Part shown: positions 16,175-64,000 of the stretch, piece after piece
Position numbering within the stretch: the first letter of the stretch is position 1
How the letters are laid out: each line of letters starts with the position of its first letter
Assembly: GCA_023313575.1 (NCBI GenBank)
Contig: JAJTTP010000005.1
Span: 310,001-374,000, forward strand
Reading direction: 5' to 3'
DNA: 64,000 bases
From: Eutypella sp. D-1
Taxonomy: Eukaryota; Ascomycota; Sordariomycetes; Xylariales; Diatrypaceae
Program-made: the position numbers and the translations under genes
The notes under the pieces: generated by a model
Told to the model about the DNA's origin: nothing
What the model saw: the letters and a program-made list of their open reading frames with translations, nothing else
Database searches by the model: none

Positions 16175-19100
16175 ATGGCAATGTCGGAGCGATCATGCCC
16201 AGTGTCGGGCTCTGTAGGGGGCGGCAGGTGTCCGGCGGGCCACGCAGCCGGACATTCAGGCAGGAATACCATGGGCCCCCGAGGCTGCTCCTTCTCGGGA
16301 CACTCACAGCCAGGAGATATCCACGCGGCTTTTGACGTATGTCAAGTCGAAGCCGCCATTATCGGGCCACCAGTGTGTATGCTAACACGATACAGATTCC
16401 GCGGGGCGTCGACGTGGAGGAGTGGCTCCGGATGAGGGAGCGCAAGTCGATAACGTCGCTCCTTTACTCCAATATACCGTCCGTTAAAGAGATCGACGCA
16501 GCCAAGAACCAGCTTGAGATAGATTCTTTCAACGCAAATGAGCAAGACCTTCTGGCCGTCGCGTTGGGGGCACCCGCTAGACAAGTGATGCTCAGGGCAG
16601 AAGAAATTGGCCCACAGACCGGGTGGATCGATGGGTACCTTAGCGCAGACCACGGATTCTGCCCGCCAGACTACGACGAGGCCGTCGCCGCTTTATCAAG
16701 AACCCCGGGACGGGTATGGGCGGATCTCTGTGAGCGGATGCCCGGTTGTGTCGCTAGGGGCCGTGTCCAGGAATCCGTCGCCGCTCTGCCGCTCGTTGAA
16801 GGCACAAAAGAGGTTATTCCGGACCACGCGTTATGGGCAGGCGTAGTAGCGCTAGGCAGTAAGTATATATCAAGATGGCTTCAAGGATGACTTATCACTG
16901 ACAGTGGCAGTGCTTTGCTCCATTTATCGGTTTGAGGCCAAAAATGACGGTACGGAGGGCCTCACCACCAGCAGCGTCAAGAAACACAAGCCCAATTGTC
17001 CGATGGGTGACGAGTTAGGGATGGAACTTGCCGGAATCCCGATGACCATTGCGCTGCCATACTACCAGATATCGCGTCGTATGGGACGAGCGCTACCTCA
17101 CCTTTCGTTCCCAGACCAGGCTTCCTACAACGTAAAGATCAGGGATCCCAACTCGAAGTATCCCTACCTAGCTCGTTTCGACAACATCGACCTCCGATGG
17201 CCTGTATTTGGCGAGAAGGCTGAAATTGCCTTCCTCAAAGGATGTGCCGACACTTCGGGTGAGTATATCTTCTATACCTGCAGGCACTGACCTGTGAGCG
17301 CTGACACTCTATAAGCATCTTTCCAGCACGGGCCGGACGCGATCGCCGCCTGCCAAGAGCACGTCATGAACAGGAACGTGGAAGGGCTTCTCCGAGAGAT
17401 GATCCGACTCAAGGAGATATTGGAGCGGATGCCTAATGCTTTCCACTCGATCTCGGTGAACCCAAACTCCGGCGAGAACTACGTGCCTGTCCACCAGTGG
17501 ATCCGCTGGGGCAAGTTTTCCACGCCTCTGTCAAAGAGAGTCCCGGCCGCTTCGGGACTCCAGTTTCCCCCTTACCTGGTCATGGATGCCTTCTTAGGTC
17601 GTAAGAAGTGAGTTGGATACTAGTCATTGCGGAAAACTTACCTGTCGATGCTAAGCACGTGTAGGTACACATCGTTCCTGGGCGCTGAAGGCGTGCACCT
17701 TCGAGCCTGGTTGCCCTCTAATCTTCGAGCCTTCATTGCGGCTATAGAGTACCATTACCGCATACCCGAATTCGTCCAGCAGTCGGGCGACCCCCGCCTT
17801 ATGGGAGTCCTGGACGGCATCGTCGAGGCTTACACGGGCGAGCGCGGATTCATGGGCACGCACCGTTACAAGGTTTTCGGTATTCTCGAGATCGCCGCGA
17901 AAATAGGACGATCGGAGACTAATGGCCTGTCCGGTGCTGCCGACGCTGGGCGCCCATGGGAGGAGACACATCGTCAATTCTCCGACTCCATGAAAGAGCG
18001 TCTCGAGCCGTACCGCGGCAGCGTCCCCGTGGAACCTAACCAGATGAGGGGTTCCTTCGAAGAATGCCGATATGTCACTAGAGTTCTGAACCGATCAAAC
18101 GTCGACGCCGATCCCGCGCGGTCTATCGCCCTTGTCACGCTAGACATCCAAGATACCGGTATCACGTTTATGCCGGGCGACCGCCTCGCCGTGATGCCGC
18201 TGAACAGCTGGGAGGAGTGCGCCAAGGTGGCCGCAGCGCTGGGCCTGGAAAACCGAATCGATGAGCCGCTCAGCGTGAGCGGTTCCTGGTCCCGCTTCGA
18301 ACAGCACCTAGGTGCCGTCAGGAGGACGTCGGTCAAGAAGCTGACGGTCGGCGATATCCTCCGCCGGGGCCACCTGGCACCTATCACCAAGGAACTCGCG
18401 CTCAAGGTTCACGGCATGCTAGCCGCCTCCTCCAACACGGTCCTCCAAGTTCTGGCGACCGACGAGTGGCCGGTTCGGGGGTCGCTCGGGGACATGCTGC
18501 AGGAAGCGCTCATGGACACACCGCCGCACATTTGGGACAAGGCGTTCAACCTCGACGACCTCACGTGGCTGGCCGAACTAATTCCCGTCGAGATCCCGCG
18601 TACCTACTCGATCGCCAGCTACACGGACGAGCTTCTGCCCAGCACGGTCGACCTGGCAGTGTCGCGGGCTGAGTACAAGCTATGTGCTACTTTCGCCAAG
18701 CAGGAAGAAATCACCCGCGCCGGCGTCGCGAGCGGCTTCCTCAACTCCGCTGAGCCCGCCGACGAGACCGTGTCCGACGACGAGATCCTTGTCGGCGTCT
18801 CGCGGCCCCTCGCCTTCCAGCTGCCCCTGGACTCCGCCGCCCCATGCGCCTTCTTCGCCGGCGGCAGTGGCATTGCGCCTTTCCGGAGTTTCTGGCAGTA
18901 CCGCCTCACCACGAATGGCTTGTCTGGAGGCAAAAATTACTGTAAGTGATAACAGAGACTCGGCGCCTCTGCGCCTGGCCTTTTTGAAGAGTAGGCCTTA
19001 TATATGCTAACCACCGATATTACAGTGTATCTCGGTGTGCAGTCTCGCGAGAAGTTCTGTTTCGAGGACGAGCTGCGAGAGTACGTCCACGCGGACTTCA

Positions 19101-21595
19101 TGGAGGTGCATGTGGCGTTCTCGCGGGACTCCCGCGGCGTGGCGTACGACCCCCACAACCGCGACCTCGTCGAGAGGCAGATGCCGCCGCGGTACATCGA
19201 CACACTCATTGTGGAGCAGGGGGCGACGATCTCGGACCTGGTGATGTCGAAGAAGCAAGGCGGGCTGGGCGGATACTTATATGTGTGCGGGTCCGTGGCG
19301 GTGTTCGACTCGGTGATGAGCGGCATTCGCAAGGCCATCTATACGCACTGCACGGCGACAATGGAGAACGTCGACCTGATCGTCAACAAGGCGTTTGCGG
19401 AGCGCCGCTTCATGCTCGACGTCTTTATGACCCCCAAGCCGCTCCCCTGCAACTTGCCGACCATTCCCTTGTCGCAGCTCGCTGTCCACACGGGCCACCG
19501 TCCCGGGTCGCGCATGTGGATCGGCGTCCACGGCAGCGTGTACGACGTCACGGACTTCTGCCCGATGCACCCCGGCGGGACGCAGATCGTCAAGTCAAAC
19601 GCCGGAGTAGACTGCTCCAAGTCGTTCGACAACCTCGCCCACACCAATAACCCCGAGGTTGCCAGCCTGCTGACCAAGTACTTCGTCGGGCATCTGACGC
19701 CGAAGCCCGACTTCCAGTCCGGCAGCGAAGACATGTCGATGCTGTACGACTTATGGGCGGGATACCTACGGACGACGGTAGAGACGCTAGTGGCACATCA
19801 GATCGAGATGCACGAGCTACAAGGTGCATCGCTAGACGCGTCGTCGTCGCACGACAGGGCGGGCATCGTCAACATCTGGCTGCGGGAGAACCTGCCGAAC
19901 ACGATTGCGATCCGGACCTTCTACGAGTACCAGAGCCGGCTGCTACAGGGCGGGTTCTCGGCGCTGTTCGGCGGCAAGCTGCAGGAGCTGGTGCTGAAGC
20001 TCTCCTTCGCGCTGGCCAACGCGAGCGGGCCCGGCGCCAACATCCAGTTCCCCGACATCCTGGGCGCCGTGGCGCGCGCTAAGACCAGCGCCGACGCCGT
20101 CGCCTGCACCAACGAGGTCGCGCTCGTCGGCCAGTTCGTCTGCGGCGCCGAGGGCATCCTGCGCTTCCAGGAGCGCGGCGTCTTCTCCTACGCCGCCCGC
20201 AGCGTCGAGCTCGACATCGAGCTCCTCGAGGACCTGCGCCAGGAGGTCTGCACCGGCATGGACGCGTTCGACAGCATTGCGAACTCGCAGCGGCAGCGGC
20301 AGCAGGAAGGCGGGGAGGACGGTGAAGCTGACGTCGACGACGAGAGCCGCCTGACGGCGCTCTCGGCGTTCCTGCTCCAAATCCTCGAGCGCATCGCCCG
20401 GCGTCTGGGCATCTTCTACGCGCAGCTGGCGCAGTGCTCGGTGTACCGGCCGGAGCTGGAGCGGAACCCGGCGCGGACGCGCTGGGCGCTCGTGCGCCGC
20501 TGCATCTGGGACGGCAGCCTGTTCGTGCTGGCGCATGCGGCGGAAACCGAGGCCCTGGCCGCGGGCCGCCCGCTACCCTCGCATTACACGTCGCGCGCGA
20601 ACCTGAACCAGAAGATCGACTTTGACGACGTCATGACGCAGGTGCGCGGCACGCTGGCAGGGTCGCCGGAGGCCCAACAGCAGCAACAACAGCAACGCCA
20701 ACTTGCCCCGGGCCTGCGTCTCCAGCAGCAGCAGCAGCAGGAAGAGCCCGTGACGCTCAACGCGGTGCACCAGACGCGGGGACGGAGCACAGGCGACGCG
20801 AGCGCAGTGGCGACGCGCGAGAACGCGGGCGCGCTGCGGGCCATGAGCAGCTTCGTGGAGAAGAACAGCAAGGCGATCCGGCGACTGAGCAAGATGCCGA
20901 CGGCGCCCATGAGCTTCGAGGAGATCCGGCGGTCCGCCGCCGCCATGGGCGTGCACACACCGCCCGGGTCCGCGGAGTCCGTCGACATGATGGCCCTCGC
21001 CGGTAGTGGTGGTGGCGGGAGACTGCCGACGCCGCCGTCCAGTCGCGTGTCGAGCCGCTCCCCGTCGCGCACTAGACATTCGTCGACCGGCATGTCGCAC
21101 TCCGCCGAGATGCTGCTCAGCAAGATCAACGGCGCCCGCGTGCGGCACCCCTCTATGAGCATGAACAGCCGCTTTGGCAACGCATCTAACCACGCCGCCC
21201 ATGGGCGCCAACCCTCCCAGCATCATCATCAGCAGCAACAACAACAGCCCCTATACCCCGTAATCGGCGGCGTTCCAACACCACCCGCAAGCACCGCGGG
21301 CGGGTCGGTCAAGGGCGTGCACTCGGCGCTGGGGCCGATGCTGAGCCGGCTCAACAGCCGCCGATCACTCGGAGGCGCGCAGCCCCCCACGGTGGGTAGC
21401 GGCACAGGCCAAAACCACCCTATGTCGATGCCAATGCGGACGAGGTCAGTGTCGAGCACGCGGTCGGGCGGCGGGCGCAGCATGAGCCGCGGGCGCGAGC
21501 CGGGCCACGCTTCCATGCCCTCGACCAATTCCATGCGCAGCTTCAGGCTCCGGGGCGTGTCGGAGGTGGGCGAGCGCGTGCAGCCGACGTTCTGA
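16175..21595 (+). CDS. IDO-like haem domain / P450-reductase-like FAD-NAD(P) module / cytochrome b5 fusion protein
   Basis: Six exons (16175-16336, 16396-16858, 16905-17258, 17316-17607, 17665-18941, 19026-21595) with consistent phases encode 1705 residues. Residues to about 550 follow the indoleamine 2,3-dioxygenase fold: GIPMTIALPYYQISRRMGR, HGPDAIAACQEH, YVPVHQWIRWG, and GFMGTHRYKVFGILE with likely haem ligand His490. Next is a ferredoxin-reductase/P450-reductase-like module: FMPGDRLAVMP (592-602), FAD motif RTYSIAS (736-742), nucleotide motif GGSGIAPFRSF (823-833) and GYLYVCGSVAVF. A cytochrome b5 domain follows, with HPGG at His1031 and the second ligand His1055, 24 residues apart as is canonical. 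After a helical region (about 1085-1260) comes a disordered tail with polyglutamine near 1401. There is no flavodoxin domain. Inference: the reductase feeds electrons through b5 to the IDO-like haem, making a self-sufficient oxygenase. Substrate unknown. Confidence 0.8.
20678..20745 (+). repeat. CAG/CAA-rich tracts coding polyglutamine
   Basis: Two Gln-rich runs separated by a short Leu/Pro/Gly linker lie within the last exon of the fusion protein gene. A third CAG/CAA tract at about 21226-21249 follows a His-rich stretch. They mark the disordered C-terminal tail and may vary in length between strains. Confidence 0.7.
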
Positions 21596-32398: not shown

Positions 32399-35309
32399 TG
32401 TTGTTGTACGCCTCTCTTAGGGCTACATGTAATAGGATAGGTTTGGTATAAGACTTTGGTGGGCAAGTCTAGGGTAGGCGAAGAAAGCAAAAAAAGAGGA
32501 AGAGAAAATTGGAATATGGGGGGGTGAGATGAGGGTCGATCTCTTTATATTCAGGCCGACTCGGGGAAATATTCCACTGCAAGGTGAGTGTGAATCTCTC
32601 TCTTTACGGAAGCAGAATGAGGTACGATAGGGTACTTGGACAGGGGTCAATGTAATGTATGTACCTGGTTCATGTACCTGGTAACGGAAGACGGATATCA
32701 CCTCTGTGTATTACTTCTATTGTATTGTGTATTGTTGAATGTACCAATAGGAATAACATGTACCTCTGGCTACCGCCCGCACCGTACATACGATCCGGGT
32801 CGTGCCCAGTTGCCCCAGATGGTAAATAATCGTGGTAAGGAGGTCCCACCCGCAAACTAGGTACCTCCATACCACCACACCTGCTTTTCGGAGCCTACTA
32901 ATTATTTGCAGTACATAGTTCCCCTAACCCTTACCCATTTTAGGCCCATTCTGTCATTATGTCCTATTATACCGATTTACGTCGAAGCAGATGAATCCTC
33001 AAGACTCATAAGACCTCCTAAGAATTTCAAGACGAAAAGGTGCTTAATGGGGATACATGAGCTACCTATAGTGACCCACGGAGTCACTACAATGGCACAA
33101 TGGCACAATGGCATGTACAGAGGTCCTCCAGCTTCCGCGCGCGTGGCACCTTCTCCGGCTGCGCTACCAGGTTGGGTTTGATGTGGGGAAGCTCCATCTG
33201 GGGTAGGCTGTATGTACCTCCCTATAATGTAAGTACCCTAGGCATGTGATATACTTACGCGGGCTAGGTCCAACGGGTTAGTTCCATGTTAGTATCCATG
33301 GATTGTCTTGTATCCATCGCCTTTCGTTCAATTCACCACCGGAATAACACTACCACGAAGCCGTTGAATCGGTTAGACAAACCACGTCCGGGTTATCGTA
33401 GACCGCCATATTAACGCTATACCTATAGGTACTCGTAGTGTTGTCGTAGTGTTGTGATGATAATCGCGGGATATGCTACGCGGAGGATCGTTTGTGTTAC
33501 CCAGACCGTCAGACATACTTGACGACATCGCTTAAAATTGAGGCCTACATGACCATAGCTCACCACGCTTGTGGTCTTGCATGGCGTCAATTGGCCCGAG
33601 TAGGGCCTTTTTTTTCGAGCTGACAGCCCCCTCCTAGACGGAAAAGCAAACAGATGTAACCATAACTACCAAAACCACCGGGCACACGTGTATGCACTGT
33701 GGCCTTGTCTTCCAGTCAGCCAGTTGCCAGCCAACCAGTGCGGTAGCCGATAGGGGTTCAGCATTGTACAGTACAGTACGCATAGGGAAAACTCTGGAGA
33801 TCACGCGCATGAGGAAGGAGGGCAGCAAGGGCAAGCAAGGTCAGCTCGAGGAATCGAATGGGTAAGCTGAAAAAAGAACGGAAAAAAAATAAGGAGCTCG
33901 TACATAGCACCCCTTAACGGACATCTACGATCCTGGGGAATAATGGGCTGATTGAAGAACTACCCGTGGTTGGGCCATCCCGGAAGCCAACCAACCTCGA
34001 AGCATCCAGGGATGGTGATTCAGCTTGAGACCTACACTATTACGTATGATATACATAAAACACATATAACTATCCAATATGCGTCCAGGCTGCCAGGACA
34101 CTTTTCTTTTTTGTCCATGGTGCGTAAGTGGGTGAAGAAATGTAACGTGCGCTACTGGGACCGAGCCAGCCAGTTCAAACTATACTATATACTGCTAAAG
34201 TTGAAGGCATCGTGATGTAGGGGGCTGTCCATTATACTAGTATGTAAGCATGTCTCGCTTGCTCGCCTAAAAAGGCGCCGTCCCCGACCTAACGAAGAAG
34301 TCCTCCCGGATCCGTCGCGCGAAGCCTACCCTATTTCCCTGCCAACATACTTACCGAGCTTACTTAAATACTTACCTACAATTACTTGTGCCAGTTGGAA
34401 GGGAAACTTAAAATAGAGGAGCGGGAGGCGCCACATAGCTGCTAAAAACGGTCTGCAACCGGTGAACCTTCTTTGTTTTCGGGATCAGCTTGTTAAAAGC
34501 GTGACAGGAAACTAGGCAGATGGGATAGAGCAGAGTGGCTGCCACGAGCCCTGACAGAATGAGTGAAAAGGTCCTAGACGAGTTCGTCAAGACATATTTC
34601 TATGGGCATTGTGTCTTCGTCGTCTGGTTGGTCAGGTTATAACCTTGTGTCTGAGACGATCCAGAACAAGGCCCCAACTGCGCTGATCGACAACATACGA
34701 GCAAGACCTCGGCGGCCTATCTTGCCAATCTGGGGAAAGGGTTGCTCATCCCCACTGCGGTCCAATCGCAGATGGAGAAAAAAGCGAAAACTCGATCAGC
34801 AGCCTTTTAGCGGCTAGCTAGAGTAGCCGTCTCCCTAACGATGTCCGATCTGCTTAGTTCAGCTCAGCCAATAGTGGTCCCATTGTAGACCAACGTTTGC
34901 GGCAAAGCTGAGAAATACGAAGAGGAAGACAGGGCGAGAAAAAAAAAGATTACTTTACCCGTGATATTAACAGTTTCGTTTTTTTAATTTTTCTTCTTTT
35001 AAGGAGTGTTTTCGAGCATAATTAGGGCCATACTTATGGGTTAAAAGTAGGGGGAATTATAATCCGACCCGAACCGTTTTTAAGCATAAGCTATAAGTTA
35101 TTATATTAATTTTGCTAGTGGGTTATAATAATTATATTAACTATATAATTAATAAAATATTTTAAAACGGTTAATAAATACCTACTTTAATAAAATCACT
35201 TATATAAGTGATTATTTTTATTAAACCATTTATTAACATTATTATTATTATATTTATTAAGTAGCTATTATTATAACTATTATTATAACCACCATTATAA
35301 TTATTATAA
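32399..35309. other. Intergenic segment grading into AT-rich block
   Basis: It contains the transporter promoter and then unassigned sequence. Base composition changes abruptly near 34970 from balanced to very AT-rich. Short frames at 34408-34590 (-) and 34602-34817 (+) have no recognisable features. From about 35220 the DNA is a TTATTA/ACCATTATAA-like simple sequence that served as insertion target for the retroelement. Confidence 0.4.
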
Positions 35310-35314
35310 TTATT

Positions 35315-35742
35315 TATAACGGCCGGTTTATTGTTAATTAATAATTTAATTAAGGGGTTTATATTAATAAAAGTGTTAAAGGTTTTAAGTAATAAATAAT
35401 TACGTTTAATAATAATAATAAAAAAAGTGCTTTAAATAATTAAATTATATTATAAACTAATAAGCTTAAAAATTATTTAAAAAAAGGTAATAAACGTAAT
35501 TATATATTATTTATATTTTTTATTCTTAATATTAAAATATATAATTATTATTAAATTATTAAAATCGTATTTAAATATAATAATTTAATATCGTTAAAAT
35601 TATTACCGATTTAACCGATTTTTTTTAATCGTATAATGTATATAACTTATTTTAATATAGTTATTTTTTTTTAAATTTAAATTAAGGATTTTCTTTTATT
35701 ATATTAGCTTTATTCGGTTTAATAGCCCGACCGGTTATAACA
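35315..35742 (-). repeat. LTR 1 (left LTR of element 1)
   Basis: 428 bp, from TATAACGGCCGG (a decayed TGTAACGG end) to CCGGTTATAACA. It is heavily AT-shifted and matches the other five LTR copies throughout. In the element's minus orientation this is the 3' LTR. Confidence 0.9.
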
Positions 35743-38439
35743 CGATCTTTCTTTTTAAGGTTTTATTTTTAAAACCTGTTCCGTTTTTTTTTACATCTTT
35801 TAATAAGTTTTTTTTCTTTTTTTTTTTACGTTTTTTTTAATTATATTTAATCGTATATTTAAACGTATTAAACCTTTTATAAAAATTACGTAATGTAATT
35901 TTTTTTAACTACCGTATTATTTATTAATTTTTTCGATATAGCTTTTTATTTTTATTATAAACGTTATTATTTTAAATATAAAGTTTCGGAATCGGACTTT
36001 TTTTATTACTTTTTTTATATTTAAAAAAACCAGCCTCGGTATAACGTTTTTAATTTTATTACCGAACAGCTTTTTAAAATATTCTTTTAATATTATAAAT
36101 TAAAAATAAAATTTAAAAAAATTATAAAAGTTAAAAAATGTATAAAAGCATATATTTAACGTATTTAAAAATAAAGAAAAATATAGTATAAAAAATAATA
36201 AAAACGGTTTTTTATAATATTAATAATTTAAAAGATTTAAAAAAATTAAAAACGGAAAAACGTCGGGTAAAAAATATATATTTTATAAGGTTTATTAAAA
36301 CGTCGGTAAATCTTAAAGTTATTCCGGAATTTAATTAGTTTAAAATAAATATATAAAGTAATTTTAATTAAAATATTATTTTTATTAACGTTTCCGTTGG
36401 TATTAATAAAAACTTTTTAAAAAACGTTAAACGTTTATTAAATAATTAATAAGTTTTTATATATTTTCGAAATTATTATATTTTCTTTTTAATTTTATAT
36501 TTTATTTATCCATTTTTTATTTATACGTTTAAAAAATTTTTTATTTCGTATTTATTTATTTTATTTTTATAATATTTATATTTATTACGTCCTTAAGTAA
36601 AAAGATATAAAAAATTAAATGAATTTTAATTTCAGATAATAAATTTAATTCGTAATTATTTTTTAATATTTTTTAATAATTAAATACGGTCCGATATATT
36701 TATAATCGAATTTTTTTTAAGTTATTTTATTATAATATTTTTTATAACTAAATAAATTATATCTTTTTTTAAAAAAGTTAATTTTTTTAACTTTTTTTAA
36801 TTATAATACTTATTTATTTATTAACGTATAAATTTAAGTTTTATTTTTATTTTTTTATATAATTATTTAAATTATTCCGATATTAATATAACTTTAATAT
36901 TATCTGGTTTTTTTTATAAACGTTTTAATAAACGTCCGGGGTAAATCCGAAATTAATATTAATAAATATTATTTATATATTTTTATAATAAACCGTATTA
37001 TAAGTTAATTATATAATAAGTAATTATTTTATTTAGTTATTTTGTTTATAATTAATATATTATCGAAAATAGGTTTTTAATTTTATTATAAAGTTTTATT
37101 AAAATTTCGATATAAATATTATTCCTTTATTAAAGATAATTTCGAATATAAAGTTATATATTATTATAATATATTATAAAAAGATATATATTATTTACTT
37201 TATATCAGTATTTTCGTTATATAAAATAAAATAAAAAAACTTTATAAATTAATTAACGATTACGAATATACTATTATAACCGTTACGTATTATTAAATCT
37301 TTTAATATCGGTAATTTAATAATAAAATTAAATATAATAAATTTTTATAATTATTTATTAATTAATAATAATTATAATTTTCCGTAAAATTTATATCGTT
37401 TTATTTTAATTTTTCCGTATATATTATATCGTTATCGTATTTATTATATTATTAATTTTATTTTATTAAATACTTAAATCCGTTATAATCGTTTAAAAAT
37501 TTTATAACTTTTTAAATATCCGTATAAAAAATGTTTATAAATTCTTTATATTAATTATTTTTATAATTTTTATAATATTTATAACGTTTTTATTTATTTT
37601 TTTATTAATAATTCGTTATTATATTATTCGATTTATTTATATAAATTATTTTAAATAATTTTAATAATAATAATTTATTGTTATTTTAAATATCCTTTTA
37701 ACGTTAATCGGAATACCGCGTATTTAATTAATATATATTCTTTTTATAAATAATAATATAATCGAATTCCGTAAAATACTTAATATATTATAACTGTTTT
37801 CCGTTAAAGGTTTAAGTAATAAAGAAATATATAATATTTTTATAATCGGTATAAACTTAAATTTAATGCATATCTTTTATAAATTAATATTTAAATTTTT
37901 TAAATACGTTAATAATAATAAAAAAGTTTTTATCGTAAATTAAATAATTAAATTCGGTTTTAATAAATTTATAAAAATAAAATACGATAAAGTATAATTT
38001 TTTTTTATCTTATTATTTAATTTATATTTCGAAAACATAATTTAAAACGTTAGTTTTTAACTTAATAAGTTTTTTAAAATCGTATATAATAAGTATTAAT
38101 TTGTTAATAATAATGTTTTTTAATTTTTTAAAAAGTTTATTTATTTTATTAATTTATATAAACCGTTTATTTTTTTATTAATTCCGTAAAAAATGTTATA
38201 ATATGTTTAAATCGTTATATAAATTTCCGATAATAATTTATTAAGCCGAAAAAAGTTTATATTTGTTTTATATTAATAAATATTTTCCAGTTTTTAATAA
38301 TCGCAATTCTTTTAAGATTTATTTTAATATATTCGGGGGTAATAATATATCCAAGGAATTCCATTTTTTATATATAAAATATACTTTTTTCGGGTTTTAT
38401 TAATAAGTTAACGTTTTATAATATTTATAATATTATATA

Positions 38440-38530
38440 TATATACTTTTTATATTATTTTTTTAAATTTAAATAAATAAGGATATTATTAAAATAATAA
38501 ATAATAAAAATATTAAAATATTTTTATAAA
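38440..38530 (-). pseudogene. Decayed reverse-transcriptase core, element 1
   Basis: Minus-strand translation shows KYFNIFIIYYFNNILIYLNL-like residues, aligning with the RT active-site block of Ty3/gypsy pol. The two catalytic aspartates of the YxDD motif read Asn-Asn (GAT to AAT type changes), as expected from G-to-A decay. Stops lie on both sides. It marks the RT position and the element's direction. Confidence 0.65.
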
Positions 38531-39138
38531 ATATAATTAATTATGCGTTAAAATAATATTAATTCGTTAATTAATTTAAAAAGTATAATTAAATATTTAA
38601 ATATATTATATTGTATTTTAAAAGTTATTTTTTATTCGTTTCCGGGTTTAATTTTAATATAATAATATTTATTTTTATGGTTTAAAGTAATAAATTATTT
38701 AATTCCGTATAAACGGTTTTTTATTTCCGTAATAAATAATAACGGTATCCGGATTTTTATAATAATTTTATTTAATTATTAATAATCGATTATTAATTAT
38801 AATTTGCTGTTTTTTTTAATATAAATATAATTAAATATCCGGTTAATAATTTTAATTATTAAATATATTTTGTTATTAATTTATTTTTAAGGTTATAAAT
38901 TTTATAAAATCGTAACGTTCTTTTTTTATTAAAATAATTTCGTAATTTTATTTATTATATTATAATAATCCTTTTTTAAATTTTTCGTAAAATATTTTAT
39001 TATATTAATAATATTATAATAATATAATCGTTTTTTTTTAAAATGTTATTAAAAAATAAAATCGTTATCGGATAAATGCGATAATTCGTTTAATCCTTTT
39101 TTTATATTTTTTATTTTTAATTCGTTATATTTTTTTAA

Positions 39139-39577
39139 TGTAACGGCTGGTTTATTCCTAACTATTAGTCCAATCGAGGGGTTTATATTAACAGGAGTGT
39201 TAAGGTTTTAAGCAATAAATAATCACGTTTAATAATAATAAAAAAAAAGGTGCTTTAAGTAACTAAGTTATATTATAAACTGGTAAATTTAAAAATTATT
39301 TAAAAAAAAGGTAATAAACGTAACTATATATTATTTTATATCTTTTATTCTTAATATTAAAATGTATAATTATTATTAAATCGTTAAAATAATTAGCTAT
39401 TTTAATTATCCTGGATTATTAAGATAACTAATTATCCTGGTTATCTTTTTTATTACGTAATTTAAATATAATTAACTTATTATGGCTGGGTTTTTTTAAA
39501 AGCTTTATTTTTTCGAATAAGATTATGATTTATTATTAGCCTTATTTAGCCTTTTATAACCTGACCAGGTTATAACA
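39139..39577 (-). repeat. LTR 2 (left LTR of element 2)
   Basis: 439 bp, TGTAACGGCTGG...GGTTATAACA. Partly AT-shifted: its first 80 bases still keep GTCCAATCGAGGGG, unlike LTR 1. It contains a short extra copy of an AATTATCCTGG motif near 39396-39445 not seen in the other LTRs. Confidence 0.9.
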
Positions 39578-40379
39578 TAATCTTTTTTTTTCCAGGGTTT
39601 TTATCCTTAAAACCAATTCTCCCGTTTTTATTATTATAAGTATTTTTTCTTTTTTTTTTATTTCGTTTTATTTTTTATTATATCCGGTCGTATTAATAAA
39701 TTAATTTTTTAACGCGTAAAACTTTTATTTTAACGTAAAACTTTTTAACGCGATTTTTTTCTTCCGGCAGTTTTATTATTTAACCCGATTAATATAGCTT
39801 TTTATTTTTATTATAAACGCCGTTAACTCGAATATAAGGTTTTTAATTCGGATTTTTTTTATTATTTATTATATATTTATTATAACCGGAGTTAATATAA
39901 CGTATTTAAGCTTAATCCGGAGCAATTATAAAAAGTTATATCTTAATATCGAAAACTGGAGTTAAAACTTAAAGCTGTAAAAAAAAAAGCTAATATAATT
40001 AATATAAAACTCCGTTATTTTCGTTATTAAAAGCATATATGATATAAGAAAATAATAAAGGCGGTTTTTTATGGTATCGATAATTTAAAAAAATTAAAAA
40101 AGTTAAAGGCGAAAAAGCGTCGGGCGGAAAATACGTATTTTACGGGGTTTATTAAAATATTAATAAATTTTAAGGTTATTCCGGATTTTAATTAATTTAA
40201 AATAAATATATCGGGTAATTTTAATTAAAATGTTATTTTTATTAACGTTTCCGTTAACGTTAATGAAAATTTTTTAAAAAGCGTTAAACGTTTATTAAAT
40301 AATTAACGGGTTTTTATATATTTTCGAAATTATTATATCTTTTCCATTTAATTTTATATTTTATTTGTCCATTTTCTAT

Positions 40380-40643
40380 TTATATATTTAAGATTTTCTT
40401 TATTTCGTATTTATTTATTTTTATTTCGATATTATTTCGTCTTATTTTTATAACGTTTATATTTATTACGTTTTTAAATAAAGAAATATAAAAAATTAAA
40501 TAAATTTTAATTTTTAATAATAAGTCCAGTTCGTAATTACTTTTTAATATTTTTTTAATAACTAAATACGGTCCGATATATTTATAATTAAATTTTTTAC
40601 TGGGTCGTTTTATTATAATGTTTTTTATGGTTAAATAAACCAT
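40380..40643 (-). pseudogene. Integrase C-terminal fragment of element 2 pol
   Basis: An 87-codon frame with KNIIIKRPSKKFNYKYIGPY, then ELDLLLKIKIYLIFYISLFK and finally NKYEIKKILNI. It matches the end of Ty3/gypsy integrases (the block before the chromodomain). Downstream on the same strand (about 40270-40380), after a stop, KYKIKWKRYNNFENI and KPVNYL match a decayed chromodomain. This places the element among chromoviruses. Lys/Ile/Asn enrichment fits G-to-A and C-to-T decay. Not an active gene. Confidence 0.75.
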
Positions 40644-42469
40644 ATCTTTTTCCGAAAAAATTAATTTTTTTAACCTTTTTTAATTATAATATCGGCTTAT
40701 TTATTAACGTATAAATTTAAGTTTTTCCTTTATTTTTTTATATAATTATTTAAATCGTTTTAATATTAATATAGCTTTAATATTATCCGGTCCTTTTTTA
40801 TAAACATTTTAATAAACGTTTAAAATAAATCCGAAATTAGCGTTAATAAATATTATTTATATACTTTTATAATAAGTTATATTATAAACTAATTATGTAA
40901 TAAATAACCATTTAATTTAATTATTTTACTTATAATTAATATATTATCGAAAATAAGTTTTTAATATTTAATTAGTTCGTTTTATTTATCCGTTTATTTA
41001 AAGTTTAAAAGCTATTATAAATTTAAGGTTTAATTTTAATTTTATTATAAAACTTTATTAAAATTTCGATATAAATATCGTTCCTTTATCGGAGATAATT
41101 TCGAATAAAAGGCTGTATATTATTATAATATATTATAAAAAGATATATATTATTTATTTTATATCGGTATCCTCGTTATATAAAATAAAATAAAAAAACT
41201 TTATAAATCGGTTAACGATTACGAATATATTGTTATAACCGTTACGTATTATTAAATTTTTTAATATCGGTAATTTAATAATAAAATTAAATATAATAAA
41301 CTTTTATAATTATTTATTAATTAATAATAATTATAATTCTCCGTAAAGTTTATATCGTTTTATTTTAATTTTTCCGTATATGTTATATCGTTATCGTATT
41401 TATTATATTACTGATTTTATTTTATTAAATACATAAATCCGTTATAATCGTTTAAAAATTTTATAGTTTTTTAAATATCCGTATAAAAGATATTCGTAAA
41501 TCTTTTATATTAATTATTCTTACAGTTCTTATAATATTTATAACTTTTTTATTTATTTCTTTATTAATAATTTATTATTATGTTATTCGATTTATTTATA
41601 TAAGTTATTTTAAATAATTTTAATAATAGCAATTTATCGTTATTCCAGGTATTCTTTTAACGTTTATCGGAATACTGCGTGTTTAATTAATATATATTTC
41701 TTTTCCATAACAGGTTATTTACTGATAATATTTATTTATCCGTTTTTTAATTTTTTTTTATAAATAATAATATAATCGAATTCCGTAAAATATTCGGCGT
41801 ATCGTAACTGTTTTCCGTTAAAGGTTTAAATAATAAAAAAATATGTAATATTTTTATAATCGGTATAAACTTTAATTTAATACATATTTTTTATAAAATA
41901 ATGTTTAAATTTCTTAAATACGTTAATAATAATAAAAGATTCTTTATTATAAATCGGATAATTAAATTTTATTTTAATAAGTTTATAAAAATAAAATACG
42001 ATAAAGTATAATTTTCTTTCTTTATTTCGTTATTTAATTTATGCTCCGAAAACGTAATCCGAAACGTTAATCTTTAACTTAACGGGTTTTTTAAAATTAT
42101 ATATAATAAATATTAATTTATTAATAATAACGTTTTTTAATTTTTTAAAAGATTTATTTATTTTATTAATTTATATAAACCGTTTATCTTTTTTTATTAA
42201 TTCCGTAAAAAGTGTTATAATATATTTAAATCGTTATATAAATTTCCGATAATAATTTATTAAGCCGAAAAAGGCCTATATTTCTTTTATATTAATAAGT
42301 ATTTTCTAATTTTTAATAATTACGATTTTTTTAAAGTTTATTTTAATATATTCGGGGGTAATAATATATCCGAGGAATTCCATTTCTTATATATAAAATA
42401 TATTTTTTTCGGGTTTTATTAATAAGTTAATATTTTATAATATTTATAATACTTTATGTATATATTTTT

Positions 42470-42560
42470 TATATTATTTTTTTAATTTTAAATAAATAAA
42501 AATATCGTTAAAATAATAAATAATAAAAATATTAAAATATTTTCGTAATACGTGGTTAAT
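42470..42560 (-). pseudogene. Decayed reverse-transcriptase core, element 2
   Basis: The minus strand reads HVLRKYFNIFIIYYFNDIFI, the same block as in element 1. Here the second aspartate of the active-site pair is kept while the first is Asn, so the two copies decayed partly independently. Confidence 0.65.
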
Positions 42561-42720
42561 TATGCGTTAAAACGATGTTAATACGTTAATTAATCCGAAA
42601 AGCATAACTAAATATTTAAATAAGCCGTATTTCGTTTTAAAGGCTATTTTTTATTTATTTCCGGGTTTAATTTTAATATAATAATATTTATTTTTAAGGT
42701 TTAAAGTGGTAAATTATTTA

Positions 42721-43152
42721 TGTGACGGCTGGTCTATTCCTAACTATTAGTCCAGTCGAGGGGTCTATATTAGCAGGAGTGCTGGGGTTTTGAGCAATAA
42801 GTAGTTACGTCTGGTGATAGCAAAGAGAAGGGTGTTTTAAGTAACCAAGTTATATTGCAAGCTAGTAAGCTTAGAGACTATTTAAGAGAGAGGTAATGAG
42901 CGTAACTATATACTATTTATATCCTTTGTTCCTGACACTGGAATGTATAGTTGCTGTTGGATCGTTGGGATCGTATTCGAGTATAGCGATCCAACATCGT
43001 TAGGATTATTACCGATCCAACCGATCCTTCCTGGTCGTGTGGCGTATGTGGCTTACCTTAGTGTGGCTGTCTTTTTCTTCAGAACTGGAGTCAGGGATCT
43101 TTTCTTATTGTGTTTAGCCCCATTAGGCCCAATGGCCCAACCGGTCATAACA
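42721..43152 (-). mobile_element. Solo LTR 3, least decayed copy, inside element 2
   Basis: 432 bp, TGTGACGGCTGG...CGGTCATAACA, with target-site duplication ATTTA at 42716-42720 and 43153-43157. Element 1 has the uninterrupted site AAATTATTTAATTCCG near 38690-38706. Its base composition is far less AT-rich than both flanks, so it carries little RIP damage. An open frame at 42943-43158 (+) is an accident of this composition, not a gene. Confidence 0.9.
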
Positions 43153-46037
43153 ATTTAGCTTCGTATAAACGGTTTTTTATTTTAATAATAAATAGTAACG
43201 GTATTCGGTTTTTAACGGTAATTTTATTTAATTATCGATAATCGATTATTAATTATAATTTGCCGTTTTTTTTAAGCATAAATATAATAAGGTATTTTAT
43301 TAATAATTTTAATTATTAAATATATCTTTTTATTAACTTATTTTCGAAATATTTTTATAATTCTTTAAATTCGATTTTATTAAAGTTATAAATTTTATAA
43401 AATCGTGGCGTCTTTCTTTTTATAAAGATAATCTTATAGTTTTATTTATTATGGTTTAATAATCCTTTTTTAAATTTTTTATAAAATATTTTATTATATT
43501 AATAATATTATAATAATATGTTACGTATTCGTAATATCGTTTTATTTTCCTTTTTTAAAATGCTGTTAAAAAGGCGGAATCGTTATCGGATAAATATGAT
43601 AATTTATTTAATCCTTTTTTCGTATCCTTTTTTTTTAATTCGTTATATTCCTTTAAATAAGGTTTTTATCGTATTTTTATATCCGTATTTATTATCCGTT
43701 AAGTATTAAGATTTTTTTTTAAATTATTATCGGTTTTTAAAAAATAAGGAAATATTATTTAGCTAATTCTTTAATTAATTGATAAATTATATTAATATAG
43801 CCATAGTTATTTAAGGATTATATTATATCTTTTTAAAAATATAATATCGAAAATAATATCTTATTTTTATCCTTCGATATATACGTTAAGTTAATCGGTT
43901 TCCCGTAATACTTTTTTTTTATCGTATTTAAAAATATAATTTTCGGCTCCCGTTATATTATAAAAATGTTATTTTTCTTTTTATAATAGCTATAATTTAT
44001 TATATAATTTTAAAGTTATATAATTACCGTCGGCTCCGTTATTTATTATAACGGTATATTAATTATTTTTAACCTTTATTCGTATTATAATATATCCGTA
44101 TCGTTTTTAAGCTTTTAAAATAGCTTATAAATATCGTATTACGTTTTTAAGCTTTATAATACCGTTTTATAACCTTAATATAAACGGCTTTATCTTTTTA
44201 AATTTTTACTGTAAATTTATATAACGTTATATAAGTTATTGTAAAGTTTTTTTTTATTAGATTCTTTTTATATATACGGTTATTTTTTTATTATTAAATT
44301 TTTATAAAAATGTTTAAAACTAATTTTATTAAAGGTTATCCTTTTTAATAAATCCTTATAAACGTATAAGTCGGCATTTAATAACTTATTTTTTTAATAT
44401 CGGATTTTATATTTTTATTATTCGATTTTATTTCGGATTTTTATAACTTTTAATATTTAATATATATATTTATTATAATAATATATTTAATATCCTCCGG
44501 GGCAAAATATTTTTTTAACCACTTTTAATTATACGGTACGCAGTTAACATAACGTATAATTTTTTTATACCATTATTAATCGGTTTTATCTCCTTTTTAT
44601 TATAAAAAATCGAATCTTTTTTTAATTATTTATCTAATTCGGCTAATAATACCGATTTTTTATTCTTTATATTAATAGCATTTATATTTTCGGCAATTAA
44701 TAAGGTATTTTAAAAAATATAACGTCCGAGTTTAAATTTTTTAATTAATAAACTTATTTTAATTACGAAATTATTATAAATAAATTTTAAATCGTTATTT
44801 TTTAAAGCGTTATTAAAATCGTTTAACGTAAATACCGTATATTTTTATAATTTATAATTTTATCGTTTTTTAAACTAATTAATTAATCGTTTTATCTTTT
44901 TTTTTTTTTATAAAATAAATTTTCGTAAAAGCTTTTTTTTTATCGTTATTAAAGTATTTATTTTATTATTATTAACGTTATCGTTTTATTACGGCTTAAA
45001 TTAATCGTTTAACTTTTTATAATCCTTATTAATAAATGTTATTATCCGAATATACGTAACAGATTATTCCGAGCGTTTTTTTACCGGCAAAAAGTTATTT
45101 TTTTTCGGGTATAAACTTTTAATTTTTATCCCGTTTAAATCCTTTATATTTTTTTTTAAAATATCCTATTTTATTATAATTATAATATTTAATTTATCGT
45201 TTATTTTTTCGTATTATATTAAGCGATATAAGTTTTAATACCGTTTCGTAAAATGTATCGGTAAGCTTTTAATTTTAATTTTTATTATTTTAATATCTTT
45301 TAAATCCTTTAAATATATAATATCCTTTTTTTTTTAACGTTATTTAAATTATTTATTATTAATTTTAATTATTAAAATAACGAATTCGTTAATAATACCT
45401 GGTTTATCGTATAAAATAATCTTATTTTTAACCGTATCTTTAAGTTTTTAATAAAATATGTTAATAAAAGATTTATTGTTTTTTTAATCAGTTTTTATTA
45501 TAAGCTATTTAAATTACGCGGCGTAAATATAAGCTATTTTTTTTATTTAAAATTTAGGAGTTATTATATAACGGTTCGGGCTTTATCCGGGTTTTTATAA
45601 TTAGTTTTTACCTTTTTTACGAAATTTTCGTACTTTTCGAAAAAACGTTTAATTTCCGTAATATTTTTTTTTTTTTTTTTTTACGAAAGTATTTAAAATA
45701 GGTTTAAATTATTAAATTATCTTTCCGGTAAAACATAAAGCGATATTAAAAATTTTATCGGCTTTTTCGGTTAATATATGGCGTTATTAATATAAATAAG
45801 TTATAGCTGTAATAAAAAAAAGTTATACGGGGGTAATACCATTATAAGGTTTAAGTTTTTTAAATTTAAATTTAACGGGTATAATTTTTTAAGTTACGGC
45901 TATAATTATTATTTATTCGATTTATTCGATTCGTTTAAATAATAATTTAATAATTTATTAAAGTTTTTAACTTAAAAAAAACATTTTATCGGATATTGCT
46001 TAAAATTAATAATATTATTAAATAAAAACTTATAACA

Positions 46038-46468
46038 TATAACGGCTAATTTATTCTTAATTATTAATCCAATTAAGGGGTTTATATTAACAGGAATATT
46101 AAAAATTTTAAATAATAAATAATTACGTTTAATAATAATAAAAAAAAAGTACTTTAAATAACTAAATTATATTATAAACTAATAAGCTTAAAAATTATTT
46201 AAAAAAAAAGTAATAAACGTAATTATATATTATTTATATCTTTTATTCCTGATATTAAAATATACAGTTATTATTAAATCGTTAAGATCGTATTTAAATA
46301 TAACGATTTAACGTTATTAAGATTATTACCGATTTAACCGATCCTTCTTGGTTATATGGCGCATATAGCTTATTTTAATATGGTTATCTTTTTTTTTAAA
46401 ACTTAAGTCAGGGATTTTTTCTTACTGTGTTAGCCCCATTAGGCCTAATGGCCCGACCGGTTATAACA
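46038..46468 (-). repeat. LTR 4 (right LTR of element 2)
   Basis: 431 bp, TATAACGGCTAA...CGGTTATAACA. In minus orientation this is the 5' LTR, followed inward by the decayed primer-binding and gag side. It is more eroded at its left end than LTR 2. Confidence 0.9.
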
Positions 46469-47807
46469 TTTAATAAGGTTTTTATCGTATTTTTATGCTT
46501 ATATTTTTTATTTATTAAATATTAAGATTTCTTTTTTAAATTATTATCGGTTTTTAAAAGATAAGGAAATATTATTTAATTAATCTTTTAATTAATCGAT
46601 AAATTATATTATATTTTTTTAAAAACATAATATTAAAAATAATATTTTATTTTTATTTTTCGATATATATATCGAATTAATCAGTTTTTTATAATACTTT
46701 TTTTTATCGTATTAAAATATATAACTTTCGGCTTTTATTATGTTATAAAAATATTATTTTCTTTTATAATAATTATAATTTATTATATAATTTTAAAATT
46801 ATATAATTACCGTCGGCTCCGTTATTTATTATAACGGTATATTAGTTATTTTTAACTTTTATTCGTATTATAATATATCCGTATTATTTTTAAGCTTTTA
46901 AAATAGCTTATAAATATTATATTACGTTTTTAAATTTTATAATACCGTTTTATAATTTTAATATAAACGGTTTTATTTTTTTAAACTTTTACCGTAAATT
47001 TATACGGCGTTATATAAGTTATTATAAGTTTTTTCCTTACTGGACTTTTTTTATACGTACGGTTATTTTTTTACCGTTAACTTTTTATAAAAATATTTAA
47101 AGCTAATTTTATTAAAAGTTATTCTTTTTAATAAATTCTTATAAATATATAAATCGGTATTTAATAATTTATTTTTTTAATATCGGATTTTGTATTTTTA
47201 TTATTTAATCTTATTCCGGATTTTTATAACTTTTAATATTTAATATATATATTTATTATAATAATATATTTAATATCCTCCGGGGTAAAATATTTTTTTA
47301 ACCATTTTTAATTATACGGTACGCGGTTAATATAATATATAATTTTTTTATATTATCGTTAATCGGTTTTGTTTTTTTTTATTATAAAAAATCGAATTTA
47401 TTTTTAATTATTTATTTAATTCGGTTAATAATACCGATTTTTCGTTTTTTATATTAATAATACTTATATTTTCGATAGTTAATAAAATGTTTTAAAAAAT
47501 ATAAAGTCCGAGTTTAAATTTTTTAATTAATAAATTTATTTTAATTACGAAATTATTATAAATACATTTTAAATCGTTATTTTTTAAAGCGTTATTAAAA
47601 TCGTTTAACGTAAATACCGTACGTTTTTTATAATTTATAATTTTATTATTTTTTAAGCTAATCAATTAATTATGTCTTTTTTTTTTATAAAATAAATTTC
47701 CGTAAAAGCTTTTTTGTTTTATTATTAAGGTATTTATTTTACCGTTATTAACGTTATCGTTTTATTACGGCTTAAATTAATTATTTAACTTTTTATAATC
47801 TTTATTA

Positions 47808-48238
47808 TGTAACGGCCGGTCTATTCTTAACTATTAGTCCAGTCGGGGGGTTTATATTAACAGGAGTGTTAAGGGTTTTAAGTAATAAATAATCACGTTT
47901 AATAATGGCAAAAAAAAAAGGTGCTTTAAGTAATTAAGTTATATTATAAGCTAATAAATTTAAAAATTATTAAAAAAAAAAAGGTAATAAACGTAATTAT
48001 ATACTATTTATATCCTTTATTTTTAATACTGGAATATATAGTTATTATTAAATCCTTAAGATCGTATCCGAATATAACGATTTAATATCGTTAAAATTAT
48101 TATCGATTTAACCGATTTTTTTAATCGTATGGCGTATATGGCTTATTTTAATGTAATTATTTTTTTCTTTAAAACTGGAGTTAGGGTTTTTTTTTTATGT
48201 TAGCCCCACTCTGCCCAATGGCCCGACCGGTCATAACA
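47808..48238 (-). mobile_element. Solo LTR 5 inside element 1
   Basis: 431 bp, TGTAACGGCCGG...CGGTCATAACA, with target-site duplication TATTA at 47803-47807 and 48239-48243. The empty site is preserved in element 2 near 45020-45040 (TATAATCCTTATTAATAAATG). Decay is intermediate between LTR 3 and LTRs 1 and 6. Confidence 0.9.
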
Positions 48239-49144
48239 TATTAATAAATATTATTATCCGGGTATACGCAGTAAATTATTTTAAACGTTTTTTTACCGGT
48301 AAAAAGTTATTTTCTTTCGGGTATAAATTTTTAATTTTTATTTCGTTTAAATCTTTTATATTTTTTTAAAAATATTTTATTTTATTATAATTATAATATT
48401 TAATTTATTGTTTATTTTTTTATATTATATCGAATAATATAAGTTTTAATGCCGTCCCGTAAAATATATCGGTAAGTTTTTAGTTTTAATTTTTATTATT
48501 TTAATATTTTTTAAATTATTTATTATCGATTTTAATTATTAAAGTAATAAATTTATTAAAAATATTTAATTTATTTTATGTAATAATTTTATTTTTAATT
48601 AAATCTTTAAATTTTTAATAAAACGTATCGATAAAAGATTTATCGTTAATTTAATTTATTTTAACGGTAAACTGTTTAAATTACGTAACGTATATATAAG
48701 CTATTTTTTTATTTAAAACTTAAAAGGTATTACGTAACGGTTCAGGCTTTATCCGGGTTTCCGTAATTAGTTTTTACTTTTTTTACCTTTACGAAAATAT
48801 TTAAAATAGGTTTAAATTATTAAGTTATTTTTCCGGTAAAGTATAAAATAATTTTAAAAATTCTATTAATTTTTATAATTATTATATAACGTTATTAATA
48901 TAAATAAATTACGGTTATAATAAACAAAGATTATACGGGGGTAATGTTATTATAAGGTTTAAATTTTTTAAGCTTAAATTTAACAGGGGTAATTTTTTAA
49001 GTTACGGTTATAATTATTATTTATTCGATTTATTCGATTTATTTAAATAAAAAGTTAATAATTTATTAAAGGTTTTAACTTAAAAAAATATAATATTAAA
49101 TATTATTTAAAATTAATAATATTATTAAATAAAAGCTTATAACA

Positions 49145-49539
49145 TATAACGGCCGGTTTATTTTTAACTAATAATTTAATCGAAAGGTTTATATTAATAA
49201 AAGTATTAAAAATTTTAAATAATAAATAATTACGTTTAATATTAATAATAAAAAAATATTTTAAATAATTAAATTATATTATAAGTTAATAAGTTTAAAA
49301 ATTATTTAAAAAAAAGTAATAAACGTAACTATATATTATTTATATCCTTTATTTTTAATATTAAAATATATAGTTATTATTAAATCGTTAAAATTATTAC
49401 CGATTTAACCGATCCTTTTTAATTATATAACGTATATAACTTATTTTAATATGGTTATCTTTTTTTAAAAAACTTAAATTAAAGATCTTTTTTTATTATA
49501 TTAGCCCCACTCGGCTTAATAGCCCGACCGGTTATAACA
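49145..49539 (-). repeat. LTR 6 (right LTR of element 1)
   Basis: 395 bp, TATAACGGCCGG...CGGTTATAACA. It is shorter than LTR 1 because about 30-35 bp between two ATCGTTAAAAT-like direct repeats is missing. Heavily AT-shifted, like LTR 1. Confidence 0.88.
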
Positions 49540-49544
49540 TTATT

Positions 49545-54667: not shown

Positions 54668-55756
54668 TTACCACCCGAACTTCTCAACTTGAAGACGGAC
54701 ATCAGCGCCGCTCCTGATCGCGTCGGCACAGGCATTACGCACCGCCGTGTTCATCCCCTCGGGGCCGGACACCACGACGCCGACCCCACCGCCATCATCA
54801 GCCACGGAAGAAGAAAAAGCCAGGTCCCGGACATAACCAGGGATATCGGGTCTACCGGCCTCGGCGGTCGGCTTGGGGACTGTGACGTGGACGCCACGAC
54901 TCCTCAGCTCATCGAGCTGGGCCTCGGGCACCCACGAGCGCTGGGCCCGCGAGTGTACAACCCAGAAAAGATGCACTTGCACCTGCGCTTTGGCTGACGC
55001 CTCTGCTGCGTCCCTCTTGCTGCGACGACGCTGCATGGCCCGCGCCAGGTCCCATGCCAGCGGGAACGCGACTGCGATGCCGGATCCACCCGCGATGAGC
55101 ACACGCGTCGCGCTGGCACGTAGCATATCTAGCGGACCCCGCGAGCCATACGGTCCGTCGAGACGCACGCGCACGCGAACCGGGGTGTCGCTGCCATCAC
55201 TGCCATGCAAGCGTGCGTGGGCCAGCAGGGACGCTGTGAAGCCCGACTGCGCGCGGATCAGCAGGCTCAGCCATGCGTGCTGTCGTTCCGCTGTCGGATC
55301 GTGCTCGGAGTTGGGCGCCGCGGACGCGATCGTGAACGGGTGCGCTTGCCACCTGTGGCTCCGGCCGAGCGCAGGCACGCTGACGAACACGTGGTCCGCG
55401 GGGCCCCAACCGTGCCTGGTTCCCTGCCGCCATGACGCCACGAAGCATGGCGGCCACCAGCGAGAAGGCTGGCGTAGCTAGAGCGGTATATCCCAGTTGG
55501 CGGAGAGCATGACCGTCTCGCCATCCTCCAGGATTCGCAGGTCGACATCGAACCAGTCGGACTTGAGCCCGAGGCGCCATGCAATTCTGTCTACCGCGAA
55601 TATCACCAGCGCGGCACCCACGTACGGGCGGGCGGTGTGATAGTGCAACCACAGGAAGGCGAGGGCGATGGCTTGCAACGCGACGTGCGATGCGAGGAAA
55701 GCCTCATAGCAGCGGCGCCGCAGGCCACGCAGGGAGGTCAGGTAGAGAGTCTCATA

Positions 55757-60293: not shown

Positions 60294-64000
<3,707 letters not shown>

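Follow-up and report, generated by a model that had tools for sequence, protein, structure and literature searches.

What would a protein do that carries, on a single chain, a relative of indoleamine 2,3-dioxygenase (IDO), a flavin module of the kind found in NADPH-P450 reductase (CPR) and nitric-oxide synthase (NOS), and a cytochrome b5 (b5)? The question is raised by a gene at positions 16175 to 21595 of a 64,000-nucleotide stretch of the ascomycete Eutypella sp. D-1 (assembly GCA_023313575.1, contig JAJTTP010000005.1, positions 310,001 to 374,000, forward strand), referred to here as the window. Judging by sequence comparison, the case is about evenly balanced for the reading we prefer, namely that the product is a haem oxygenase with an IDO-type fold that draws its electrons from NADPH within one chain, probably a monooxygenase acting on a substrate other than tryptophan.

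Gene structure and domain architecture

All five introns of the gene are GT-AG, and the spliced product is a single frame of about 1,703 amino acids. Intron 2 has two neighbouring acceptors, of which relatives favour the second (exon 3 from 16911), and comparison with relatives also suggests that the start codon may be Met3 at 16181. Counts out of 197 refer throughout to the window protein aligned with the 196 of 303 collected proteins that have at least 1,400 amino acids (107 shorter ones were left out), and identities per block to a separate, smaller alignment of 121 sequences. The features on which the argument turns are as follows.

16175 to 21595, plus strand: whole gene, six exons, 1,703 amino acids, from splicing and translation
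16175-16336, 16396-16858, 16911-17258, 17316-17607, 17665-18941 and 19026-21595, plus strand: exons
16531 to 18022, plus strand: IDO-like domain (residues ~100-541), its coding sequence split by introns 2 to 4, with Pfam, profile and weak structural support
17861 to 17863, plus strand: His488 (in GTHRYK), candidate proximal haem ligand
18032 to 19438, plus strand: CPR/NOS-type module for FAD and NADP(H) (residues ~545-985; Pfam FAD_binding_1, NAD_binding_1), its coding sequence split by intron 5
18599 to 18619, plus strand: RTYSIAS motif
18860 to 18883, plus strand: GGSGIAPF motif
19475 to 19696, plus strand: cytochrome b5 domain, residues ~998-1071 (Pfam Cyt-b5, 54.6 bits)
19568 and 19640, plus strand: codons of the b5 axial histidines His1029 and His1053

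In the window protein IDO, FAD_binding_1, NAD_binding_1, and Cyt-b5 all pass their Pfam cut-offs; neither an FMN (flavin mononucleotide)-binding flavodoxin domain nor a NOS oxygenase domain was found in a Pfam scan up to E 1, and no molybdenum domain was found by Pfam. In 188 of the 197 sequences just 18 residues (the stretch 541-558) separate the IDO-like and FAD domains, and no membrane span is evident, because the best 19-residue hydropathy window averages only 1.46. These domains, their order, the candidate cofactor residues, and the conservation described below can be read directly from the sequence.

The sequence-only reading of this locus had proposed the six-exon gene; a single chain joining a domain of the IDO fold, a P450-reductase-like FAD/NAD(P) module lacking an FMN domain, and b5; a candidate haem histidine; and the b5 histidine pair. 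The single frame, the introns, and the four Pfam matches in the spliced product bear out the gene and the fusion, the Pfam and profile scores given below bear out the relation to IDO, and all three histidines prove to be invariant. Their numbers in that reading are two too high: His490, His1031, and His1055 are His488, His1029, and His1053. That reading had a single candidate before it, for what turns out to be a recurrent architecture in a widespread and apparently old family, and it mentioned neither the N-terminal Cys-Pro motifs nor the helical domain after b5.

The IDO-like domain and its candidate haem ligand

Kinship with IDO is supported by sequence: i) the Pfam IDO match scores 36.7 bits (cut-off 26) over residues 136-388; ii) an IDO match is present in 8 of 8 members of a family subset; and iii) a family profile matches human IDO1 with an E of 2.4e-14 (HMMER). 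In a structure search with a poor model of the domain (pLDDT 50), all 50 matches listed are IDO chains, but at TM-scores of 0.24-0.29, so that structural support for the fold is weak. His488 is present in 197/197 sequences and is in register, by MAFFT, with the corresponding histidine of three IDO frames from the same genome. Residues that we paired manually with IDO1 Phe163, Ser263, and Asp274 in the HMMER alignment are kept in 197, 192 (with 5 gaps), and 196 (with 1 gap) sequences, respectively, and blocks 401-500, which include His488, are the most conserved of the whole protein (0.90 identity each). This pattern bears on the possibility that the NADPH-FAD-b5 part works for a separate partner, with the IDO-like domain acting as a docking or structural module. 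Both b5 and CPR do serve many fungal acceptors, but the best-conserved blocks lie in the supposed accessory module, where His488 never varies, and we hold such an arrangement to be very improbable.

The reductase module and cytochrome b5

The reductase region of P0001, a relative with 79% identity over 100% of the window protein, matches nNOS reductase (E 1.2e-14) and CPR (E 1.4e-13). Within RTYSIAS, which we take to be an FAD-binding motif, R734, T735, Y736, and S737 are present in 197/197; within GGSGIAPF, presumably a nucleotide-binding motif, S823 and G824 are present in 197/197, and G821 and G822 in 196. S880, R881, D979, and F981 are likewise invariant, as are both b5 axial histidines, one in HPGG and a second further on, and C935 is found in 196 sequences with one gap. 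S880-R881 aligned, using a P0001 fragment, with AFSR of CPR, which we assume to be the NADPH-selecting site that binds the 2'-phosphate. The fusion resembles CPR and nNOS reductase in its FAD and NADPH domains, where RxYS, SGIAPF/TGIAPF, SR, and YVCG align and the final D-x-F is as in nNOS, but differs from them in that no FMN domain was found and b5 lies on the C-terminal side. With a predicted haem domain and a reductase on one chain, the protein would have the arrangement that defines a self-sufficient haem oxygenase.

The tryptophan site is missing

The tryptophan-binding segment FF..R of IDO1 (Phe226-Phe227...Arg231) was found in 0/197 sequences when the alignment columns corresponding to residues 366-392 were scanned for F[FYWH].{2,3}R, and the GTGG active-site loop, which we understand to be present in human IDO, was also found in 0/197. 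The fusion is like IDO (PF01231, comprising human IDO1 and IDO2 and fungal IDO alpha, beta, and gamma) in sequence, in its candidate haem histidine, and in the Phe163, Ser263, and Asp274 counterparts, but unlike IDO in lacking FF..R and GTGG and in carrying a reductase, b5, and extra N- and C-terminal parts; the family appears to keep the IDO relationship and fold but not the IDO tryptophan site. Because both motifs are missing throughout, a substrate other than tryptophan is favoured, and to this extent the "new substrate" of the sequence-only reading stands.

The window genome has one copy of the fusion. Three further loci in it match IDO (553, 397, and 68.7 bits), the second of which contains one TAG inside the six-frame match. 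The third (L012, G000:C5:908530-909342) is divergent relative to the two strong ones and is possibly, as a guess, of the low-activity IDO gamma type. These genes matter for the idea that the fusion is an ordinary tryptophan/indoleamine 2,3-dioxygenase with its activating b5 and reductase attached, as the IDO homology and the reported activation of human IDO1 by b5 and CPR (PMC4191572, PMC13142367) might lead one to expect. With the segment and the loop absent from every sequence, and with the two stronger IDO genes able to fill the tryptophan role, we consider this distinctly unlikely.

A fungal family under several names

With the whole protein as query 335 matches were obtained, and with a distant, joined seed 390; each search scored only the ~7,990 candidates that had most words in common with the query, and the two lists of the best 120 overlap. 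All four domains are present in 116 of the best 120 in each list, counted manually from a precomputed Pfam column, and were found again in 5/5 distant members on rerunning Pfam; in one of these five, P0259, FAD_binding_1 reaches 28.9 bits, below the cut-off of 32.3. Source names span Sordariomycetes, Leotiomycetes, Dothideomycetes, Eurotiomycetes, Pezizomycetes, and Agaricomycetes, with lineages looked up for six species; the architecture occurs in both Ascomycota and Basidiomycota, in many moulds and mushrooms. Since the same architecture recurs across so many fungi, the IDO-like, reductase, and b5 parts very likely work together.

Among the misleading database labels of these proteins are "hypothetical protein", "sulfite reductase flavoprotein", "nitric-oxide synthase, salivary gland", and "NADPH--hemoprotein reductase". 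Those naming sulfite reductase or nitric-oxide synthase suit the reductase part only. Against sulfite reductase alpha models, P0001 scores 81 bits at best (cut-off 432) and 72.1 for cysJ (cut-off 668), over residues ~560-980 only; to nitric-oxide synthase only the reductase part is similar, and the Pfam scan of the window protein up to E 1 did not find the NOS oxygenase domain. No title or abstract among those listed in searches of open-access literature describes the fusion. Its component parts are of known kinds; what is new is their combination, its spread, and the missing tryptophan site.

In a FastTree phylogeny of the 197 sequences (1,214 columns), whose root was set by hand on the Basidiomycota split so that direction is assumed, 11 sequences assigned to Basidiomycota by their source names branch apart from the 186 others, including metagenome proteins, with support 1.0, and for this reason the fusion looks old. 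The 186 fall into two main groups with low support (0.46 and 0.50) and a small group of three. In five species of Leotiomycetes or Dothideomycetes the fusion is present twice (P0229/P0256, P0242/P0280, P0241/P0281, P0245/P0267, and P0247/P0290). Distances of 0.93-1.27 within these pairs suggest that the gene was duplicated early, and the paired copies may differ in substrate; a Colletotrichum pair is 0.61 apart.

A proposed electron route

We propose that i) NADPH would reduce FAD; ii) FAD would hand electrons one at a time to b5, occupying the place that FMN has in diflavin reductases; iii) b5 would reduce the predicted His488-ligated haem of the IDO-like domain; iv) the reduced haem would bind and activate O2; and v) the likeliest chemistry would be monooxygenation, with electrons used at every turnover and a substrate other than tryptophan. 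We favour this last step because the tryptophan segment and GTGG are gone and an attached reductase fits an electron need at each turnover. NADPH-P450 reductase is reported to reduce human IDO1 whether or not b5 is present (PMC13142367), and b5 is reported as a reductant of human IDO1 (PMC4191572); IDO dioxygenation is described as requiring no electrons after the first reduction, and monooxygenation as requiring re-reduction for turnover (PMC12921851).

Several points weigh against this route. The HMMER alignment to IDO1 ends just short of the ligand, and His488 lies three residues beyond the H346 position given by ungapped extension of that alignment; the counterpart of Arg343 differs between methods, being the conserved R482 by HMMER (191 R and 6 K of 197) and Met/Leu/Phe485 by MAFFT; HHalign against the IDO frames of the same genome is weak (probabilities 0.4, 11.8, and 6.5%); and the model of the IDO domain is too poor for its haem pocket to be inspected. 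The loss of GTGG is a hint only, because human IDO, which has GTGG, does some monooxygenation according to a published account (PMC12921851). Docking of b5 on the IDO-like domain is an assumption of the route, and cofactor binding, electron flow to the IDO-like haem, O2 activation, and the chemistry itself are what we infer from sequence.

Known systems offer partial precedents for a single-chain oxygenase of this kind. P450 BM3, P450foxy, NOS, and flavohaemoglobin each unite a haem domain with an NAD(P)H reductase in a single polypeptide, as the fungal fusion would; unlike all of them, the fusion has an IDO-like haem domain, and it has b5 in the place of FMN in those that contain FMN. In nitrate reductase and b5-fused cytochrome b5 reductases, the flavin passes electrons to or from a fused b5, but the flavin domain of the fusion is of the CPR type, not the b5-reductase type, and Pfam found no molybdenum domain with it. 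MarE and PrnB, of the family of histidine-ligated haem aromatic oxygenases (HDAO), are stand-alone bacterial enzymes that are not known to have an attached reductase; what they would have in common with the fusion is a His-ligated haem, predicted in the fusion and, for MarE and PrnB, taken from the literature. Both are reported to have a His-ligated haem and to carry out monooxygenation (PMC12921851), and for MarE, whose active-site loop is altered, this loop and ascorbate are reported to steer between dioxygenation and monooxygenation, ascorbate promoting the latter (PMC12312684). A b5-reductase fusion is also on record (PMC4557397).

The flavohaemoglobin plan, a haem domain and an FNR-type reductase on one chain, suggests another reading, in which the fusion is an O2-binding or NO-detoxifying analogue whose reductase restores ferrous haem and which requires no organic substrate. 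Loss of the tryptophan-binding segment would suit this, as would reports that IDO-like myoglobins carry O2 after losing tryptophan activity (PMC4191572) and that cytoglobin can rely on b5 for NO dioxygenation in vitro (PMC3820574); but an IDO-like turbo myoglobin is described as incapable of high-fidelity NO dioxygenation (PMC3820574), and the window genome already has two globin matches, in frames of 471 and 452 amino acids. We judge this reading unlikely.

N-terminal, helical, and tail regions

Three further parts of the protein are as follows.

16175 to 16336, plus strand: N-terminal segment in exon 1, with SCPVSG (Cys8-Pro9), CP (Cys19-Pro20), and RGC.FSG (Cys38)
19706 to 20557, plus strand: conserved all-helical domain, residues ~1075-1358, after b5
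20558 to 21595, plus strand: variable Ser/Gly/Arg/Gln-rich tail and stop codon, mean identity 0.16-0.43 per 50-residue block

RGC.FSG and two Cys-Pro motifs are present in most sequences that reach far enough N-terminally: Cys8 and Cys19 are each found in 93/121, with gaps at those columns in 24 and 25, and two Cys-Pro dipeptides precede Q60 in 135/197 sequences, one in 12, and none in 50. The helical region has an identity of 0.61-0.75 in 50-residue blocks 1051-1250 and 1301-1350, and 0.45 in 1251-1300. AlphaFold2 models this domain of P0001 with pLDDT 72 and pTM 0.68, and no convincing Pfam or PDB relative was found (best Foldseek E 0.16). A weak BAR-like arrangement appears among the VIA-align matches listed. 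Serine makes up 14% of the last 343 residues.

The conserved Cys-Pro motifs, which presumably resemble haem-regulatory motifs, together with the IDO-like haem, the helical domain and the variable Ser-rich tail, could also belong to a redox or haem sensor, with a role in regulation and not in metabolism. A complete and invariant NADPH-FAD-b5 residue set seems costly for such a role; no signalling domain was found in the window protein by Pfam up to E 1, and among the helical domains of 11 members only three marginal matches turned up, each confined to a single member. A sensor therefore strikes us as improbable.

Elsewhere in the window, a 15-kb island at 35000-50000 has 11-25% G+C (nearest flanks ~46-55%) and looks like an AT-rich island of the RIP (repeat-induced point mutation) type; no stop-to-stop frame of at least 120 amino acids occurs between 32022 and 49791. 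On the minus strand lie a ferric-reductase-like frame (54668-55477; FAD_binding_8, NAD_binding_6) and a frame with DAO, FAO_M, and GCV_T (60294-62870), which we take to be dimethylglycine/sarcosine-dehydrogenase-like.

Implications

More broadly, and only tentatively, the family could represent a new class of self-sufficient haem monooxygenase, a parallel to P450 BM3 and NOS in which the haem is His-ligated in an IDO fold, b5 replaces FMN, and the substrate is not tryptophan, with a history reaching back to the common ancestor of Ascomycota and Basidiomycota. Whether the known IDO reduction systems operate in vivo is called unclear in a 2026 preprint (PMC13142367); here an NADPH reductase and b5, the proteins proposed as IDO reductants, occur in two fungal phyla as fusions with an IDO-like domain. 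A single purified fusion protein would let electron delivery to an IDO-type haem be measured directly, and the fusion may reveal a class of haem oxygenase that has been filed in databases as sulfite reductase or nitric-oxide synthase.

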